Of a DNA stretch of 64,000 nucleotides, positions 12,458 through 21,621 are shown in pieces. The notes beneath the pieces are model-generated. The model saw only the letters and a program-made list of their open reading frames with translations. It was not told where the DNA came from and made no database searches. The DNA is from an uncultured Pelagibacteraceae bacterium (GTDB lineage: Bacteria; Pseudomonadota; Alphaproteobacteria; Pelagibacterales; Pelagibacteraceae), in NCBI GenBank assembly GCA_902522115.1, contig CABYUV010000002.1:1-64000 (forward strand), written 5' to 3'. A program made the position numbers and the translations under genes. How positions within the stretch are numbered: the first letter of the stretch is position 1; each line of letters opens with the position of its first letter.

Positions 12458-12976
12458 ATGAAAGATATTTACATAACTTGGGAGGATTATCATCAAAAGA
12501 TTGAGGAATTAGCTAAAAAAGTACATGAAGATAATTTAAAATTTAATCAAATTATTTGTATTGCAAAAGGTGGATTAAGAGTAGGTGATGTTTTTAGTAG
12601 ACTTTTTAATGTCCCATTAGCCATCTTATCTGTTGAGTCTTATCATGGTGATAGTGATGATATTAAAAACCAACAAGGACAGTTTACTTTTTCAAGAGAT
12701 TTAGCAAAAACTACTCCAAACTTAGGTTCACATGTTTTGCTACTTGATGATTTAGCAGATTCTGGGAAAACTTTAATAAAAAGTATTAAATGGTTAGAGC
12801 ATTTTTATGGATTTTATTTAGATGAAAAAATTAAAACTGCAGTCATATGGCACAAATCAACCTCAAAATTTAAACCTGATTACTCTGTAGATTTTTTAAA
12901 AGATTCTCCTTGGATACATATGCCTTTTGAGAAATATGAAACTACAAATATAAAAGATTTTAAGTTTGAAAAATAA
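12458..12976 (+). CDS. Phosphoribosyltransferase, xanthine/guanine-type
   Basis: PRPP motif VLLLDDLADSGKTL; 172 aa; next to guaC and apt. Confidence 0.8.
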   Translation: MKDIYITWEDYHQKIEELAKKVHEDNLKFNQIICIAKGGLRVGDVFSRLFNVPLAILSVESYHGDSDDIKNQQGQFTFSRDLAKTTPNLGSHVLLLDDLADSGKTLIKSIKWLEHFYGFYLDEKIKTAVIWHKSTSKFKPDYSVDFLKDSPWIHMPFEKYETTNIKDFKFEK

Positions 12977-12977
12977 A

Positions 12978-14012
12978 TTATTTAATTAAACTATCATTAA
13001 ACTGATTGGATACTCTAACAAATGTCGTACATTTGCTTAATTGTTTGAGAGAAGGTGCACCAACATAAGTACAACTACTTCTAACACCTCCTAAAATATT
13101 TAAAATTGTATCGTTAATTTTACCTCTATATTTAACTCTAACTTTTCTGCCTTCACTGCTACGATAATTTGATAATCCACCGTAATGTTTTTTGTTAGCT
13201 GTTTCAGAACTAGATCCATAAAACTCTATATATTTTTCTCCATTAATTTTAACAACTTTACCTTTTCCCTCGTCATGTCCAGCGAGCATTCCTCCAAGCA
13301 TTACAAAATCTGCACCACCTCCAAATCCTTTAGCAACATCACCGGGACATGTACATCCTCCATCTGCAATTACATGTGCACCAAGGCCGTGTGCTGCGTC
13401 AGCACATTCGATTACTGCACTTAATTGCGGATATCCAACTCCAGTTTGTATTCTTGTTGTACAAACACTTCCAGGTCCAATTCCAACTTTAACAATATCT
13501 GCACCACTTAAAACTAATTCTTGAGTCATATCAGCTGTTACTACGTTACCAGCAATTATTGTTTTAGTAGGGTATTTATCTCTTACTGATTTAATAAAAT
13601 TAGTAAAATGCTCTGTATATCCATTAGCAACATCAATACAAATGAATTTAAAAAAACTAAATTCTTTTAATACTTTATCTAAGTTTTTAAAATCTTCTTT
13701 TTTTATACCAACACTAAGTGCAATATTAGGATAAATTTTTTTAATATTTTTATTTTGTTTAATTTTTTTAACATCATGTTGTTTGGTTAAAGATGTAATC
13801 ATTCCAAATTCATTTAATTTTTCAGCAACACTTAACTCTCCAACACCATCCATATTTGACGCCATTATTGGTATACCTGACCATTCATTTTTGCTGTATT
13901 TAAATCTGTATGTTCTTAGAAGATTTACGTCTTTTCTGCTTTTTAGTGTACTTCTTTTAGGTCTAAAAAGTACATCTGAATAATCTAACTTAAGCTCTTC
14001 TTCAATTCTCAT
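12978..14012 (-). CDS. guaC: IMPDH/GMP reductase family protein, probable GMP reductase
   Basis: LDYSDVLFRPKRS, VKVGIGPGSVCTTRIQTGVGYPQLSAV, DGGCTCPGDVAKGFGGGADFVMLGGMLAGHDE; no CBS domains. Confidence 0.85.
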   Translation of the reverse strand: MRIEEELKLDYSDVLFRPKRSTLKSRKDVNLLRTYRFKYSKNEWSGIPIMASNMDGVGELSVAEKLNEFGMITSLTKQHDVKKIKQNKNIKKIYPNIALSVGIKKEDFKNLDKVLKEFSFFKFICIDVANGYTEHFTNFIKSVRDKYPTKTIIAGNVVTADMTQELVLSGADIVKVGIGPGSVCTTRIQTGVGYPQLSAVIECADAAHGLGAHVIADGGCTCPGDVAKGFGGGADFVMLGGMLAGHDEGKGKVVKINGEKYIEFYGSSSETANKKHYGGLSNYRSSEGRKVRVKYRGKINDTILNILGGVRSSCTYVGAPSLKQLSKCTTFVRVSNQFNDSLIK

Positions 14013-14083: not shown

Positions 14084-14620
14084 CTAATGACCTGGAAATT
14101 CAATTAAATTCTCAACTTTATAGTTGTTTTTTATTAAATTATCTGACCCGCCTAAATCAAATAAGTTAATTACAAATATAAATCCTGCAACTTTGCCTTT
14201 AGAAATTTCAACCAATTTTGCTGCCGCTTCTGCTGTTCCGCCAGTAGCAATGAGATCGTCAATTATTAAAACTTCATCTTTTTCATTAATAGAGTCTTTA
14301 TGTACTTCAATTGTTGCATTTCCATACTCAAGCTTAAAATCTACCGAGTGAACATCTGCTGGCAATTTATTCTTTTTTCTGAGCATAATAAATGGTATTT
14401 TAAGCACAAACGAAACAGCTGAAGCAAAAACAAAACCTCTGGACTCTATGGCTGCAATTTTAGTAAAATTAAATTTTTTTGATCTTTCAATAATCTGATT
14501 AATTGTTTCAGCAAATGCCTTTTCATCTTTAATTAATGTAGTGATATCTCTAAATAAAATACCTTTTTTTGGATAATCAGGAATAGATCTAATATAGTCT
14601 TTTAAATTCATAATAGTCAA
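14084..14620 (-). CDS. apt: Adenine phosphoribosyltransferase
   Basis: IRSIPDYPKKGILFRDITTLI, AAIESRGFVFA, VLIIDDLIATGGTAEAA. Confidence 0.92.
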   Translation of the reverse strand: MTIMNLKDYIRSIPDYPKKGILFRDITTLIKDEKAFAETINQIIERSKKFNFTKIAAIESRGFVFASAVSFVLKIPFIMLRKKNKLPADVHSVDFKLEYGNATIEVHKDSINEKDEVLIIDDLIATGGTAEAAAKLVEISKGKVAGFIFVINLFDLGGSDNLIKNNYKVENLIEFPGH

Positions 14621-14652
14621 ATATAAAAGTATAAATAAATATATTTTAAATT

Positions 14653-15525
14653 ATGACAACAAATAAATTAGCAATCATTGGTGGTAGCGGTCTTTATGAT
14701 GTTGAGGAATTCAAAGATAGAGAATTACTTGATTTAAATACCCCTTGGGGCAAACCATCTGATCAGATTTTAAAAACTAAATACAATGGTAAGGAAGTTT
14801 ATTTTTTACCAAGACATGGAAGAGGGCATTTTATTTCTCCTTCTAATATTAATTTTAGAGCAAATATTGACTCACTCAAACAATTAGGAGTTACTGATAT
14901 TGTCTCTGTATCAGCTGTAGGATCTCTAAAAGAGAATTTACCGCCTGGAAAATTTGTAATTGTAGATCAATTTATTGATAGGACTTTTGCAAGAAATAAA
15001 ACTTTTTTTGATGACGAGATCGTTGCTCACGTATCAATGGCTCACCCAACTTCTAACGGATTAATGAATGCTTGCGAAGAAGCAATTAAAAAATCTAATA
15101 TAGATTATCAAAGAAATGGAACCTATGTTGTTATGGAAGGGCCACAATTTTCAACATTGGCAGAGTCTAATTTATATAGATCATGGAAAGCAGATGTAAT
15201 TGGAATGACTAATATGCCAGAGGCAAAATTAGCAAGAGAAGCTGAAATAAGATACGCATCTGTTTCTATGGTAACAGATTTTGATTGTTGGCATCCAGAC
15301 CATGAAAATGTTGACGTGCAACAAGTGATTAAAATATTATTAGGAAACGCTGAAAAAGCAAAACTTATGATTAAAAATTTAATTGATAATTTTGAAAATC
15401 ATATAGATCCAAATGACCCAACTAATAATTGCTTAGATGTGGCTATTATTACAGCCCCAGAAAAAAGAACACAAAAAACTAAAGATAAATTAAAAACAAT
15501 TGCAGGAAGGGTTTTAAATATATGA
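14653..15525 (+). CDS. mtnP: S-methyl-5'-thioadenosine phosphorylase
   Basis: LAIIGGSGLYDVEEF, FLPRHGRGHFISPSNINFRANI, VVMEGPQFSTLAES, IGMTNMPEAKLAREAEI. Confidence 0.92.
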   Translation: MTTNKLAIIGGSGLYDVEEFKDRELLDLNTPWGKPSDQILKTKYNGKEVYFLPRHGRGHFISPSNINFRANIDSLKQLGVTDIVSVSAVGSLKENLPPGKFVIVDQFIDRTFARNKTFFDDEIVAHVSMAHPTSNGLMNACEEAIKKSNIDYQRNGTYVVMEGPQFSTLAESNLYRSWKADVIGMTNMPEAKLAREAEIRYASVSMVTDFDCWHPDHENVDVQQVIKILLGNAEKAKLMIKNLIDNFENHIDPNDPTNNCLDVAIITAPEKRTQKTKDKLKTIAGRVLNI

Positions 15526-16460
15526 AGAAAATATTTTTAATTACATTATTTTTGATTATTTCAAATTACGCTTACGCTAATGGTAAAATTTTAAAAAGTG
15601 GATTTTTTACTAAATCAGCTTCAGTAAAGGAGGGTATGGACGTAAAAGATCCAAAAAACAAAATTATAATTATTTATAATCATGGTCAAAATTCAAATGA
15701 TAAAGCACACAAGAAAGAATGTATCTGGGTAAATCAAATAAGAAATCAAGCTTCATTAGTTGATGAGGAAATTAATGGTAAAAAAATTATGGTTTATAAT
15801 TTCTGCTCAAATGATTTTGCTGGTGACATGTCATTAAAAAAACACTGGTGGAAGTCCAAAACTTCTTATGTAGGTAAACATAAGTTAGACAAAAGGGTTG
15901 AAAAAAATTTAGAATTAGTTGAAAAATTTATAAGCATGGGAGTTCCAAGAAAACAAATTATAATATCAGGTCATTCATGTGGAGGTCTATTAACCCTAAT
16001 GTTGTTATCATCTCACCCTAAAAAAGTAGGTGGTGGTATATCATATATGCAAGCTTGCTTTGGTCAGCTTTCTAAAAGTTATAAAGTAAAAAAAGTAGGT
16101 CCTGAAAAGGCATTAGAAAAATTTGCTAAGAAATACCCAGGCCCTGCTGAATTAAGAGCAAGACAAATTAATAATATTAAAAATTCTGAAAATGTTCCTG
16201 TTCTAGCTTTTACGCATCCAAAAGATAAGTATGAAGGTCTGTTATCTGACTGGTTAGAAGAAGTCCCAGGAGTTAAAAGAATAGTTATTTCTGAAAATTA
16301 TAAAATAAACGGAAAATCTTGTGTTGTTAAAGGAGTTGATTGGCAAAATAATATCTCAGCTCAGAAAAATCCAGGTCATGAAATGAACCAGGCTGATTGT
16401 TTTCAATATTATAATCCAACAATTAAAGAATACATAGCATCACGTATAAATGAAAATTAA
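15522..16460 (+). CDS. Secreted alpha/beta-hydrolase-like protein, paralog 1
   Basis: Signal peptide; nucleophile elbow IIISGHSCGGLLTLMLLSSHPKK; 312 aa. Confidence 0.65.
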   Translation: MKKIFLITLFLIISNYAYANGKILKSGFFTKSASVKEGMDVKDPKNKIIIIYNHGQNSNDKAHKKECIWVNQIRNQASLVDEEINGKKIMVYNFCSNDFAGDMSLKKHWWKSKTSYVGKHKLDKRVEKNLELVEKFISMGVPRKQIIISGHSCGGLLTLMLLSSHPKKVGGGISYMQACFGQLSKSYKVKKVGPEKALEKFAKKYPGPAELRARQINNIKNSENVPVLAFTHPKDKYEGLLSDWLEEVPGVKRIVISENYKINGKSCVVKGVDWQNNISAQKNPGHEMNQADCFQYYNPTIKEYIASRINEN

Positions 16461-17388
16461 ATTAATATTAATTTTATTAATTTTTTTAAACAATTTTTCT
16501 TTTGCTCAAACTAAATCCGAAAAACGTTTTGAAAGAGATTTGAAGAAAATTTCAAAATTAAATTCTTTTGTAGATAACAAAGGCAATACTTATGAATTAG
16601 ACGAAAATATTAACAAAGATAAAACTATTATTTTAATTTATACCCATGGTCAGTGGGGTGGAAATCAAAAATTAAATGGATGTAATAGGCGATGGAGCAA
16701 GATACCTCCTGCAATCTATAAATTAGATGGAACTCAAATAAAAGATTTAACTATAAAAACATTTCAATTGTGTTCTGGTGTAAAAGGCTGGACTCAAAGT
16801 GAAGAAGATAAACTTTGGGAAATTTACGATAAAAATAATCAAGATGTAAACAGTGTATTAAATCTTAAAGATAAAAATGGAATTCTTTTAATAGATAAAT
16901 ATAAAGACTTTCAAAAAACAAAAGTAATGAAGTTAAAAATTGATGAATTTAAAAAAAAAGGTTTCAATAATATTGTATTATCTGGACATTCAGCAGGTGC
17001 GTATAGTTCATTTATATTAAAATCAAATTTTCCTAAAATAATAAATGGAGTAATTTCCTTACATATAGGATTTGGAGGTAAATTTGCAAAAGCAAAAAAT
17101 CCACATCGAGGTTGGATAAATTGGAGAAACTATAAAAAATCTCTTATAAATTGGTCTCAGATAGGTGACGTTATATTATTTACTCATGATAAAGATTGGG
17201 CTGATACAAGAAAGACTTTAAGTTTTTTGACAGAGTTTAATAATATTAAATTTTTTGATTTAAGTGATACACATTGTAAGAATAAAAAATTATTAGGCGA
17301 CTATCATGGAATAGCTTTAACAAAATGTTTTGCAGATGAGGATACAAGAAGTAATGAAATAATTAATTATTTAAATAAAATTTATTAA
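16450..17388 (+). CDS. Secreted alpha/beta-hydrolase-like protein, paralog 2
   Basis: Signal peptide; IVLSGHSAGAYSSFILKSNFPK; 312 aa; overlaps previous gene by 11 bp. Confidence 0.65.
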   Translation: MKIKLILILLIFLNNFSFAQTKSEKRFERDLKKISKLNSFVDNKGNTYELDENINKDKTIILIYTHGQWGGNQKLNGCNRRWSKIPPAIYKLDGTQIKDLTIKTFQLCSGVKGWTQSEEDKLWEIYDKNNQDVNSVLNLKDKNGILLIDKYKDFQKTKVMKLKIDEFKKKGFNNIVLSGHSAGAYSSFILKSNFPKIINGVISLHIGFGGKFAKAKNPHRGWINWRNYKKSLINWSQIGDVILFTHDKDWADTRKTLSFLTEFNNIKFFDLSDTHCKNKKLLGDYHGIALTKCFADEDTRSNEIINYLNKIY

Positions 17389-17389
17389 A

Positions 17390-18460
17390 ATGAAAATAGA
17401 AGGAAAAGAATATAGAACAATATGGTATGAGGAAAATGTAGTAAAAATAATTGATCAAACAAAACTTCCTCATAAATTTATTATTAAAGAACTAAAGACT
17501 GTAAAAGATGCAATCAATGCAATTAAAGTTATGGAAGTTAGAGGTGCTCCTTTAATAGGAGGAACAGCTGCTTACGGGATAGTATTAGCCATTCAAGAGA
17601 GCACTGATAAAGAATTTATTCACAAAAGTGCTGAAGAATTAATTAAATCAAGACCTACGGCAATTAATTTAAAATGGGCGGTAGATCGTATGATGAAAAA
17701 ATTATCAGGTATCAATAGCGATCAAATTTTAAATATTGCTTTAAAAGAGGCTAAAGAAATATGTGATGAAGATGAAAAGTTTTGCGAAAATATAGGTGTT
17801 AATGGATTAAGAATAATTGAAGAAATTTACGATAAGAAAAAAAGTACAGTAAATATTTTAACTCATTGCAACGCAGGATGGTTAGCAACCATTAATTGGG
17901 GAACTGCAACTTCACCTATTTATCATGCTCACAAAAAAGGAATTCCAGTCCATGTCTGGGTAGACGAAACAAGACCAAGAAATCAAGGTGCAAATCTAAC
18001 TTCATATGAGTTAAATGAAGAGGAAATACCTAACACTATTATTGCTGACAATACTGGAGGTATTTTAATGCAAAGAGGTGAAGTTGATATGTGCATTGTT
18101 GGAACTGACAGAACTTTATCCAATGGAGATGTATGTAATAAAATTGGAACTTATCTTAAAGCTTTAGCTGCATATGATAATGAAGTTCCTTTTTATGTAG
18201 CGTTACCAAGTTCAACAATTGATTGGAATATTAAAGATTCAAAAAATATCCCAATTGAGGAAAGAAACGCTGAGGAATTATCTCATGTCGAGGGTATTGA
18301 TGAAAATAATCAAGTTAAGAAAGTTTTGATCTACCCTGAGAAAAGTAAGGCTATGAATTTAGCTTTTGATGTAACACCTGCTAAATATGTAACTGGATTG
18401 ATCACTGAAAGAGGTATTTCCAAAGCTTCTTCAAAGGGATTAAAAAAATTATTTAAATAA
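17390..18460 (+). CDS. mtnA: S-methyl-5-thioribose-1-phosphate isomerase
   Basis: MEVRGAPLIGGTAAYGI, LTHCNAGWLATINWGTATSPIYHAHKKGIPVHVWVDETRPRNQGANLTSYEL, VDMCIVGTDRTLSNGDVCNKIGTY. Confidence 0.93.
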   Translation: MKIEGKEYRTIWYEENVVKIIDQTKLPHKFIIKELKTVKDAINAIKVMEVRGAPLIGGTAAYGIVLAIQESTDKEFIHKSAEELIKSRPTAINLKWAVDRMMKKLSGINSDQILNIALKEAKEICDEDEKFCENIGVNGLRIIEEIYDKKKSTVNILTHCNAGWLATINWGTATSPIYHAHKKGIPVHVWVDETRPRNQGANLTSYELNEEEIPNTIIADNTGGILMQRGEVDMCIVGTDRTLSNGDVCNKIGTYLKALAAYDNEVPFYVALPSSTIDWNIKDSKNIPIEERNAEELSHVEGIDENNQVKKVLIYPEKSKAMNLAFDVTPAKYVTGLITERGISKASSKGLKKLFK

Positions 18461-18461
18461 A

Positions 18462-20495
18462 TTATCTAAGAGAAGCTGCAATATTACCACCATCTACAGT
18501 CAAAACTGCACCAGTAGTTTTTTTTGAAACTGCTAAATGAAAAAATGCTTTAGCAACATCTTCAGCCTTAACTTCATTTAAAAGTAAGTTTCCTCTCATA
18601 TATTCATCAGTAGATACTTCTCTGGCTTTTGCACGAGATTTAATCATTCCATCATTAAGTAGGCCACTTCTAATCCTATCAGCATTTACACCATTTGATC
18701 TTATTCCAAAAGAACCATAATCTAGGGCATATTGTTTACATAAACTTAATAAAGCAGTTTTTGGAAGACCATAAGGACCAAAATTTTTTCCAGGATTTAC
18801 TGATTGTTTTGAAATATTAAATAATAAGCATCCTTGAATATTTTGTTTTTTCATTATTTTAATTGTTTCTGATGCGCAATTTTGGTGCGAGAAGAAATTA
18901 TCTTCAAAGCTTTCTCTTAAAATTTTATCATTCACTTCAGCAATCGATCCACCAATTGCAGTTCCAGCGTTGGAAATTAGAATATCAACACCACCATATA
19001 TTTCATTTATTTTTTTAAAAGCAGCTTTAACATTATTTTTATTTCGTACATCACAATGCAAACAAAGATCTGAAATTTTTCTTTGCATTTCTATAACTTT
19101 TTTTGCGTCATAATCTAGGAGAACAATTTCAGCTCCATAACTTTTAAAAAGTTTATAAGTTGCAGAACCAATTGCACCAAATCCTCCAGTAATTACAACA
19201 ATGTTTCCTTGAAGAATTTTTTTAGCTTTTTTAATTTTTGCTTGTTCTAAAGACCAATATTCAACATCAAATAAATCTTTTGCAGGAATAAACTTGTATT
19301 TTGTAGTTTCCTCTACAGATGAAATCACTCTTGCATTTGTTTCGGTTAAATCTCCAGCTATTTTAGATGCCTTAAGACTGTCTCCAACGCTAAACAAACC
19401 AACATTTTGTACCAAAATTACTCTCGGGGAAGTATCCAGCATAGTTTTCTTGCCTTTAACCTTTTTCTTATTGGTATCGAAATATCTCACATACTTTTTT
19501 CTATAATCATTAAAACTTTTCTCAGCTAGTTTTTTAAAATCTTCAATTGAAGAATTTTCTCTTGGGCTAATTACTAGCGGAAATGGTTTTACCCTAATAA
19601 CATGGTCAGGTGTTGCTGTTCCTATGCTAGAGTATCTTTTGACATCTTTACCATTAATAAAATAATTTAGATGTTTATTTGATCTATAATTTAAGATAAA
19701 TTTTTGATTTTTATTTTCTGATAATAATCCTCTTAAAATTGGTGCAATTTCATGAGGCTTGAATTTAAAATTATAATTTTGTATTTGTTTAATTTTTTTT
19801 CTCTTTAATTTTTTAATAGTTTTTTCAGCTATCGATACGTATTTGATCATTAAGTCATAAGATTTTTTGGCATCATCATCAAAAGTAAATATTCCGTGGT
19901 TCAATAAAATTAAGCAATTAATATTCGGATTTTTTTTGTAAACCTCATTTATCTTCTGAGCCAAACCAAATCCTGGCATTACATATGGCACAATACTTAC
20001 CTTTAATCCAAAAATTTTTTTGCAAAGATCTTTTCCATTTGGCCTATTTGTTATGTCCATAATTGCATCAGAATGAGTGTGATCAACAAATTTGAAAGGT
20101 AAAAATGCATGTAAAAAAGTTTCTACAGATGGGTTAGGTGACTTAATATCAATCAGGTTTCTTTTTTGATATGCAACCATATCTTCATCACTCAAGTATT
20201 TTTTATTTTTTAAAGCTAAAAGTGGGTTTAATTTTACAGCAGGTAAACCAGCTGGTTCTATTTCAGCCATGTCCCACCCACTTCCTTTAACACAGAGCAC
20301 GTCATAATGCTTGCCATCAATATCTTTAATTGAGGTTTTTACAGATGTATTTCCACCACCATGTAGAACAAGTTTACTATTTCTTCCTAATAGTCTGGTT
20401 GTATAAACTCTTAAAGCCATATCTTTCGAATGACCAAGTTTTGTATACTTTTTTATGTATTGTTTTGCTTCTAAATTTGACCAATTGTTTTTCAC
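18462..20495 (-). CDS. Bifunctional class II aldolase / short-chain dehydrogenase fusion
   Basis: N-terminal class II aldolase (HGGGNTSVK, DHTHSDAIMDITN, LLNHGIFTFDD) and C-terminal SDR (VVITGGFGAIGSA, LISNAGTAIGG, YGLPK, AVLTVDGG); 677 aa. Confidence 0.9.
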   Translation of the reverse strand: MKNNWSNLEAKQYIKKYTKLGHSKDMALRVYTTRLLGRNSKLVLHGGGNTSVKTSIKDIDGKHYDVLCVKGSGWDMAEIEPAGLPAVKLNPLLALKNKKYLSDEDMVAYQKRNLIDIKSPNPSVETFLHAFLPFKFVDHTHSDAIMDITNRPNGKDLCKKIFGLKVSIVPYVMPGFGLAQKINEVYKKNPNINCLILLNHGIFTFDDDAKKSYDLMIKYVSIAEKTIKKLKRKKIKQIQNYNFKFKPHEIAPILRGLLSENKNQKFILNYRSNKHLNYFINGKDVKRYSSIGTATPDHVIRVKPFPLVISPRENSSIEDFKKLAEKSFNDYRKKYVRYFDTNKKKVKGKKTMLDTSPRVILVQNVGLFSVGDSLKASKIAGDLTETNARVISSVEETTKYKFIPAKDLFDVEYWSLEQAKIKKAKKILQGNIVVITGGFGAIGSATYKLFKSYGAEIVLLDYDAKKVIEMQRKISDLCLHCDVRNKNNVKAAFKKINEIYGGVDILISNAGTAIGGSIAEVNDKILRESFEDNFFSHQNCASETIKIMKKQNIQGCLLFNISKQSVNPGKNFGPYGLPKTALLSLCKQYALDYGSFGIRSNGVNADRIRSGLLNDGMIKSRAKAREVSTDEYMRGNLLLNEVKAEDVAKAFFHLAVSKKTTGAVLTVDGGNIAASLR

Positions 20496-20580
20496 AGTTA
20501 CAACCTCAGCGAAGTATTATAATAGATTTTTGTTTGAAAGAAGCAAAAAATTTGATTAGTAAGGTTTCATAAAGCATATT

Positions 20581-21621
20581 ATGACAAAAGTTGGTGAACA
20601 TATTACTCTAGATATAATTGGAACCACTAAAGAATATGACCCTTCTATATTTGAAAAAGTAATTCATGATATTGCAAAAGCTGCGAAAGTAACAATCTTA
20701 AATATATCTAAATATAAGTTTGAACCTCAAGGTTTTACTATTATTGCATTACTGGCTGAAAGCCATATTAGTTTTCATACTTTTCCAGAAAAAGGAATTA
20801 TTAGCTTTGATTTCTTTACTTGTGGAAAAGTAAGTCCCTCTGTCGCGATAGACATTATTAAAAAAGAGTTTGAACACACAAGAATAGTTAAAAAGGAATT
20901 CAATAGAGATACTAAATCTCTTTATCATGACATTTATAGTTCACCAGGATTACAAAAATCATATGTAGTAAATGATGTTCTAGAGGACTTTAAATCTAAG
21001 GTAGGTCAACATATTGAAATTTTAGATTTAGAACAATTTGGAAAATCTTTATTTATTGATGGTGAAATACAAGTTGCTGCTACAGATGAGCATTTATACA
21101 GTTCTACATTTGTTGGCTCTGGTTTAGATCTCAATAAAGACAATGAAAGAGCTGCAATAATTGGTGGTGGAGATGGTGGAGTTGCAAGAGAGTGTATTTC
21201 TAAAAAATTTAACTTTATCGATTGGTATGAATTGGATCCCGAGGTTGTAGACGTTTGCAATAAACATCTTGGGGATATTGGAAAAAAAGCAACCGAAAAA
21301 AATTCTGTAAAATGTGTTTGGGGTGATGCATTTGAAAGCATTAAATCAGTAAGGGATGATACTTACGACCATATATTTGTAGATCTTAATGATGATCAAT
21401 TTTGTATAGATTTAGCTGCTAAAAATATGGAGTCATTAGTGAGAATTTTAAAACCAAAAGGAGTTATTACTGCTCAAGTAGGAAGTCAGGATAAAAAACC
21501 ACAACAGGTTGAAAATTGGCTAAAAGTATTTAATCAAAATTTTGGAAATGCAAAATTATCTAGAGTTTATATACCTAGTTTTGATTGTTCTTGGAACTTT
21601 TCTTCATCAATAAATCACTAA
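20581..21621 (+). CDS. speDE: S-adenosylmethionine decarboxylase - aminopropyltransferase fusion
   Basis: N-terminal SpeD motif LLAESHISFHTFPE and FDFFTCG; C-terminal spermidine-synthase fold GQHIEILDLEQFGKSLFIDGEIQVAATDEHLY, AAIIGGGDGGVARE, WYELDPEVVDVC. Confidence 0.88.
   Translation: MTKVGEHITLDIIGTTKEYDPSIFEKVIHDIAKAAKVTILNISKYKFEPQGFTIIALLAESHISFHTFPEKGIISFDFFTCGKVSPSVAIDIIKKEFEHTRIVKKEFNRDTKSLYHDIYSSPGLQKSYVVNDVLEDFKSKVGQHIEILDLEQFGKSLFIDGEIQVAATDEHLYSSTFVGSGLDLNKDNERAAIIGGGDGGVARECISKKFNFIDWYELDPEVVDVCNKHLGDIGKKATEKNSVKCVWGDAFESIKSVRDDTYDHIFVDLNDDQFCIDLAAKNMESLVRILKPKGVITAQVGSQDKKPQQVENWLKVFNQNFGNAKLSRVYIPSFDCSWNFSSSINH

Follow-up and report, generated by a model that had tools for sequence, protein, structure and literature searches.

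An aldolase-dehydrogenase fusion as the probable aldolase of a DHAP shunt beside mtnA in SAR11 bacteria

SAR11 bacteria, which rank among the ocean's most abundant groups, depend on reduced sulfur compounds. The DNA analysed here (the window, 64,000 nucleotides from an uncultured Pelagibacteraceae bacterium, belonging to a 1.18 Mb draft assembly of 42 contigs that is 87% complete) carries genes for polyamine synthesis and MTA salvage together with a gene for a class II aldolase fused to a short-chain dehydrogenase (SDR). The question that this locus raises is what such a protein does beside mtnA. The only characterised enzyme of the same architecture is RhaEW, a bifunctional rhamnulose-1-phosphate aldolase/lactaldehyde dehydrogenase (PMC3870299).

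An earlier note on this DNA had proposed an MtnP-MtnA-aldolase route coupled to speDE and apt. This route was supported by mutual exclusion of two aldolases at one slot, by aldolase swaps between close relatives and by class-wide linkage of the fusion to mtnA. Considering these results together with the distinctness of rhamnose-type fusions and the absence of MtnB and MtnD, it is very probable that the fusion is a DHAP shunt aldolase that acts as a non-orthologous substitute for Ald2/DrdA, with an SDR that is more likely to be oxidising. We infer its substrate, its reaction and the direction of the SDR.

The locus and the fusion protein

The earlier note placed apt, mtnP, mtnA, the aldolase-SDR fusion and a speD-speE fusion within 7.5 kb. 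An ORF check found all five genes intact at the positions given there, and the curated NCBIfam and Pfam models agreed with their assignments (Table 1). The gene guaC, a purine-salvage neighbour of apt, was retained in relatives frequently, though not invariably. In the SpeD-SpeE protein, AdoMet decarboxylase occupies residues 4-109 and aminopropyltransferase residues 114-340; SpeD-SpeE fusions in Pelagibacter are already known.

Table 1. Features of the locus, with positions in the window and the supporting model matches
Feature	Position	Strand	Match
ORF with phosphoribosyltransferase domain, adjoining guaC and apt	12458-12976	+	below every NCBIfam cut-off
guaC, GMP reductase	12978-14012	-	NF003470, 538 bits (cut-off 397)
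apt, adenine phosphoribosyltransferase	14084-14620	-	TIGR01090, 196 bits (over cut-off)
mtnP, MTA phosphorylase (by family also 5'-deoxyadenosine)	14653-15525	+	NF006492, 443 bits (cut-off 437)
Two 312-aa ORFs with signal-peptide-like starts, between mtnP and mtnA	15522-17388	+	
mtnA, methylthioribose-1-phosphate isomerase	17390-18460	+	TIGR00512, 421 bits (cut-off 279)
Aldolase-SDR fusion, 677 aa	18462-20495	-	NF006192, 896 bits (cut-off 639); Pfam Aldolase_II, adh_short
speD-speE fusion	20581-21621	+	SpeD TIGR03330, 97 bits (cut-off 76); PF01564 (Spermine_synth) and PF17284 over cut-off

The earlier note had mentioned neither the two 312-aa ORFs nor the strand of the fusion, which is opposite to that of mtnA and speDE. 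The first of these ORFs gave a weak alpha/beta-hydrolase match (Pfam Abhydrolase_2, 24.9 bits), and the second gave none. Neighbourhood comparison demonstrated that the mtnP-mtnA interval differs in relatives or holds nothing, and this ORF pair is probably variable cargo outside the pathway. Other cargo was observed in relatives both in this interval and between mtnA and the aldolase gene, such as a TRAP/sulfatase-like cassette or a pair of genes for 453-aa and 364-aa proteins, TrpB-like by eye; the stretch from mtnP to speDE looks like an insertion hotspot.

The fusion matched NF006192, a "bifunctional aldolase/short-chain dehydrogenase" family that has no assigned substrate, over its full length (residues 1-677 aligned to model positions 1-685). 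Its class II aldolase domain (approximately residues 23-229) contains E125, H139, H141 and H200 along with GGGNTS and KGSG motifs, and its SDR domain (approximately residues 428-673) contains the tetrad N533/S562/Y575/K579 and the NAD-type D461. In an alignment of 56 family members, the catalytic residues were invariant except for one Thr at S562; the catalytic Glu at E125, which corresponds to FucA E73 and DrdA E76, was found in 56/56 NF006192 proteins, and Asp461 was invariant in the family members aligned. When the fusion was compared with a public genome collection, its best matches all came from Pelagibacteraceae, with identity of up to 97%, which places it in SAR11; the nearest PDB sequence was that of an uncharacterised protein, 3m4r, not DrdA. 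An AlphaFold model was built on a shallow alignment, whose 27 rows had 79-97% identity to the window protein; with a mean pLDDT of 63, it was judged unusable.

Exchange of two aldolases at one chromosomal slot

When the surroundings of 33 SAR11 loci were compared, either the fusion or a stand-alone aldolase of approximately 218 aa was seen to occupy the slot that separates mtnA from speDE. The latter was FucA-like, with E. coli FucA as its best PDB match, followed by others including the DrdA structure 6btd (E 2.7e-38 for the Pelagibacter protein). This aldolase sits at the place expected for mtnB; it was rejected as MtnB because it scored at most 72 bits against a cut-off of 137 and was clearly FucA-like.

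The contents of the slot were surveyed in 73 Pelagibacter genomes, of which 53 had mtnA and 20 lacked it. The fusion was found in 12 genomes and the stand-alone aldolase in 41, and no genome had both (Fisher p = 3e-10 for mutual exclusion, relatedness ignored). Exactly one aldolase type was present in 51 of the 53 genomes with mtnA, and an aldolase of either kind was present in those 51 compared with 2 of the 20 genomes without mtnA. A class II aldolase is genetically tied to mtnA. In the genome from which the window was taken, no match of the stand-alone Ald2/DrdA-type aldolase was found, and the slot was occupied by the fusion.

Because the Fisher counts ignore relatedness, changes of aldolase type were counted on trees. 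The mtnA, mtnP and speDE trees required 8, 7 and 6 changes, respectively, and well-supported branches forced no fewer than 4, 4 and 3 of these. Two close pairs of genomes differed by such a change within flanks that were 86-93% identical on both sides. The genomes of the first pair (G004/G054) were collinear over approximately 16 kb at 87-91% identity, a common accessory cassette included, save for one segment, which was 0.67 kb long with the stand-alone aldolase and 2.1 kb long with the fusion. The second pair (G039/G013) also displayed a single-gene aldolase swap, with flanks at 87-93% identity; G039 had an additional ORF between mtnP and mtnA. Two non-orthologous aldolases repeatedly exchanged at one chromosomal slot amount to a natural complementation experiment. 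This repeated one-for-one exchange is the strongest evidence presented here that the fusion and the FucA-like aldolase do the same job.

Conservation of the mtnA/fusion/speDE neighbourhood, which had been put forward as a check, was then apparent in 80 further Pelagibacter fusion loci. In these loci, mtnA lay at most 5.3 kb from the fusion in 66 cases and speDE at most 300 bp from it in 77, and no stand-alone aldolase was found. Because it recurs in this set, the arrangement is not due to chance. Some of the 14 loci with no mtnA within 5.3 kb were contig ends, and others are likely to contain long insertions. In G063 and G023, mtnA was located on the contig of the fusion, 9-15 kb away.

Proposed route and direction of the dehydrogenase

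Universal methionine salvage (MtnA-B-C-D-E) has MtnP and MtnA in common with the window locus and differs from it in having MtnB and MtnD. Neither MtnB (TIGR03328, over cut-off) nor MtnD/ARD (PF03079) was found in any of 121 SAR11-order genomes. The window itself indeed lacks mtnB, mtnC, mtnD and mtnE, as the earlier note had stated, and for MtnB and MtnD this statement could be extended genome-wide. A full salvage set elsewhere, which had been named as an argument against the proposed route, was not encountered, and the absence of classical methionine salvage is supported by these two enzymes.

In the proposed route, SpeD-SpeE would make MTA, and MtnP would phosphorolyse MTA, and probably 5'-deoxyadenosine too, to adenine and methylthioribose-1-phosphate (or 5-deoxyribose-1-phosphate). 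Apt would reclaim the adenine, and MtnA would isomerise the sugar to methylthioribulose-1-phosphate (or 5-deoxyribulose-1-phosphate). The aldolase domain of the fusion would cleave this ketose-1-phosphate, yielding DHAP together with methylthioacetaldehyde (or acetaldehyde), in place of the stand-alone aldolase of the Ald2/DrdA type that relatives have in this slot. The NAD-dependent SDR that is part of this polypeptide would consume the aldehyde, and it is more likely to oxidise it to methylthioacetate (or acetate) than to reduce it. It counts against this explanation that the fusion is antisense to mtnA and speDE in the window and, therefore, is not co-transcribed with mtnA.

A cluster of MtnP, MtnA and a FucA-like aldolase constitutes the published DHAP shunt (PMC6079011; PMC10986504), the aldolase of which is Ald2/DrdA (PMC6079011; PMC10986504; PMC6302742). 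The MtnP variant of this shunt in Rhodospirillum rubrum and Rhodopseudomonas palustris (MtnP-MtnA-Ald2) resembles the window locus in MtnP, MtnA, adenine recovery, the absence of MtnB and MtnD and a class II aldolase expected to yield DHAP and methylthioacetaldehyde. However, it uses the FucA-like Ald2, whereas the window has a distant class II aldolase that is fused to an SDR and adjacent to speDE. DrdA, the 5-deoxyribulose-1-phosphate aldolase of Bacillus thuringiensis (6btd/6btg), is similar to the fusion in its expected reaction and its Glu/His3 metal site. In a literature search that covered papers readable without subscription, no aldolase-SDR fusion was found to be described in MTA or 5'-deoxyadenosine salvage. 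The DHAP shunt itself is known; what is new, as far as this literature shows, is an aldolase-dehydrogenase fusion in the probable role of its aldolase, the wide occurrence of this fusion among Alphaproteobacteria and the repeated replacement of one aldolase by the other in SAR11.

The earlier note had the SDR reducing methylthioacetaldehyde to 2-methylthioethanol with release of this volatile compound, and in this respect it was not supported. RhaEW of C. aurantiacus oxidised lactaldehyde with NAD+ and was inactive with NADH, and its net aldolase cleavage needed NAD+ (PMC3870299). Because of this behaviour of RhaEW, oxidation to methylthioacetate (acetate from 5'-deoxyadenosine) appears to be favoured over reduction, with the caveat that the direction is taken from one distant characterised relative and that the SDR tetrad differs between the NF006192 and rhamnose groups. 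There is about an even chance that a widespread alphaproteobacterial polypeptide carries out an "oxidative DHAP shunt", in which methylthioribulose-1-phosphate (and 5-deoxyribulose-1-phosphate) and NAD+ would be converted to DHAP and methylthioacetate (and acetate).

It is possible, though somewhat unlikely, that the same aldolase step is followed by reduction of methylthioacetaldehyde to 2-methylthioethanol, which would leave the cell. Measurements in E. coli identified this alcohol as the end product of the DHAP shunt, and Rhodospirillum and Rhodopseudomonas have it as an intermediate (PMC10986504); the chemistry need not match that of RhaEW, since the N-S-Y-K tetrad is complete here and its Asn is missing from rhamnose-type fusions. 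The cofactor dependence of RhaEW and the invariance of the NAD-type Asp461 speak against reduction, and oxidation rather than reduction would presumably benefit an aerobic oligotroph.

A further alternative concerns the substrate. If the main substrate were 5-deoxyribulose-1-phosphate derived from the 5'-deoxyadenosine of radical-SAM enzymes, as for DrdA in Bacillus thuringiensis, MTA would be secondary. MtnP, MtnA and Ald2/DrdA are known to act on both series (PMC6079011; PMC10986504), which is compatible with this reading; however, polyamine synthesis yields MTA, and the close proximity of speDE to the fusion in nearly all of the 80 further Pelagibacter loci makes it an improbable one.

If the fusion does act as the DHAP shunt aldolase, SAR11 would split MTA for carbon and adenine and would not return it to methionine by the classical route, and the methylthio group would exit as a small organosulfur compound, either an acid or a volatile alcohol. 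In the case of oxidation, methylthioacetate, an ionised organosulfur acid, would be an unrecognised product of polyamine synthesis in SAR11, and an organism dependent on reduced sulfur would lose it or hand it to other cells. A substrate would also be gained for a large unassigned family whose members are now often presumed to be rhamnose enzymes.

The fusion family across Alphaproteobacteria

Within the order, mtnA was found in 2 of 48 genomes of the sister family, and these 2 alone had the fusion, arranged as apt-mtnP-mtnA-fusion. Among 385 genomes of the class, 69 contained an NF006192 protein over the cut-off. The mtnA gene was present in 66 of these 69 genomes compared with 123 of the other 316 (Fisher p = 7e-20, relatedness ignored). 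MtnP was found in 63 of 68 fusion-bearing genomes and a strong MtnD match in just 7 of 68; a FucA-like aldolase (E < 1e-25) was present in 5. In loci fetched from 37 separate genomes of the class, mtnP, apt, mtnA or mtnK lay beside the fusion in 23, and 14 had no neighbouring mtn gene, which counts against the proposed role. Operons of mtnP, apt, mtnA and the fusion occurred in other Alphaproteobacteria, and on a Ruegeria plasmid mtnA was immediately upstream of the fusion. In all five plasmid loci from Rhizobiaceae and Devosiaceae, mtnK and mtnA accompanied the fusion, as did a sugar ABC transporter. Therefore, the special relevance to sulfur-limited marine cells that the locus had been given is too narrow. 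From sequence, most of the NF006192 family appears to be linked to MTA/5'-deoxyadenosine salvage, with polyol exceptions.

On four of the five plasmids (L206, L207, L209 and L210), split transketolase-like genes and a gene for a RuBisCO-like protein came after mtnK-mtnA, next to the fusion; a single plasmid cluster may here offer methylthioribulose-1-phosphate two alternative fates.

Rhamnose-type fusions served as controls. RhaEW/TIGR02632 proteins are like the window protein in carrying an aldolase and an SDR in one polypeptide with GGGNTS/KGSG, three His and the NAD-type Asp, but they share only approximately 28-31% identity with it and form a separate distant clade on a very long branch. 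They had Asp in place of the catalytic Glu in 4/4 proteins seen and lacked the SDR tetrad Asn (533), which was confined to the NF006192 group. The surroundings of the sub-cut-off fusions in G190, G284 and G379 were rhamnose-type, with rhaI as well as kinase and transporter genes; the fusion of R. johnstonii 3841 likewise lay in a rhamnose-type locus, and mtnA was found in just 1 of 11 genomes with a rhamnose-type fusion. The window protein scored 437 bits against the rhamnose equivalog TIGR02632, below its cut-off of 567.75. No rhaI or rhaK homologue was called in the 80 Pelagibacter fusion loci, in agreement with the earlier remark that no rhamnose genes lie nearby, and no adjacent sugar pathway using the fusion was found in Pelagibacter relatives. 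The RhaA family (PF06134) was absent from the window's genome and from 11 other fusion-bearing SAR11-order genomes, in a search of limited sensitivity, since just 3 of 11 Rha-type genomes yielded the isomerase in it; its 3 matches among 80 genomes each adjoined a rhamnose-type fusion. The identity of the fusion as a rhamnose enzyme was rejected on the model score, the RhaA result, the Asp/Glu difference and the distant clade. More generally, an aldolase for rhamnulose-1-phosphate or another sugar or polyol phosphate that stands beside mtnA by accident, although it would explain the RhaEW-like architecture and the members found in polyol loci, is largely refuted by these findings, by the same-slot exchange with the FucA-like aldolase and by the class-wide association with mtnA, and is very improbable.

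Some members of the family were found outside mtn loci. Fusions of R. etli p42a (L253) and R. leguminosarum Vaf-108 (L254) grouped with that of G232, in which mtnA and mtnP were not found. In L254, the fusion had genes for a UgpC-type ABC transporter, glpD, sn-glycerol-1-phosphate dehydrogenase and a HAD phosphatase as neighbours and thus lay in a glycerol-phosphate/polyol locus; loci of this type may encode a second DHAP-yielding pathway, as yet unassigned. In G150, a single-contig genome of 1.4 Mb, the fusion lay beside an ABC transporter gene (locus L232) and mtnA and mtnP were not found; a change of function is likely for this protein. A separate FucA-like aldolase was located 15 kb from it. 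Considering the polyol-locus branch and the fusions of G150 and G232, which also count against the proposed role, it may be concluded that the NF006192 family can change substrate and that membership alone does not fix the substrate, whereas for the Pelagibacter fusions it is fixed by the context.

On plasmid pAMI4 of Paracoccus aminophilus (L257:8001-9242), a 413-aa protein was found that is homologous to the aldolase part of the fusion and has no SDR. Its gene stands at the end of an lsr locus for AI-2 uptake, which includes genes for LsrK and the Lsr transporter, and the protein may substitute for LsrF in the processing of phospho-AI-2.
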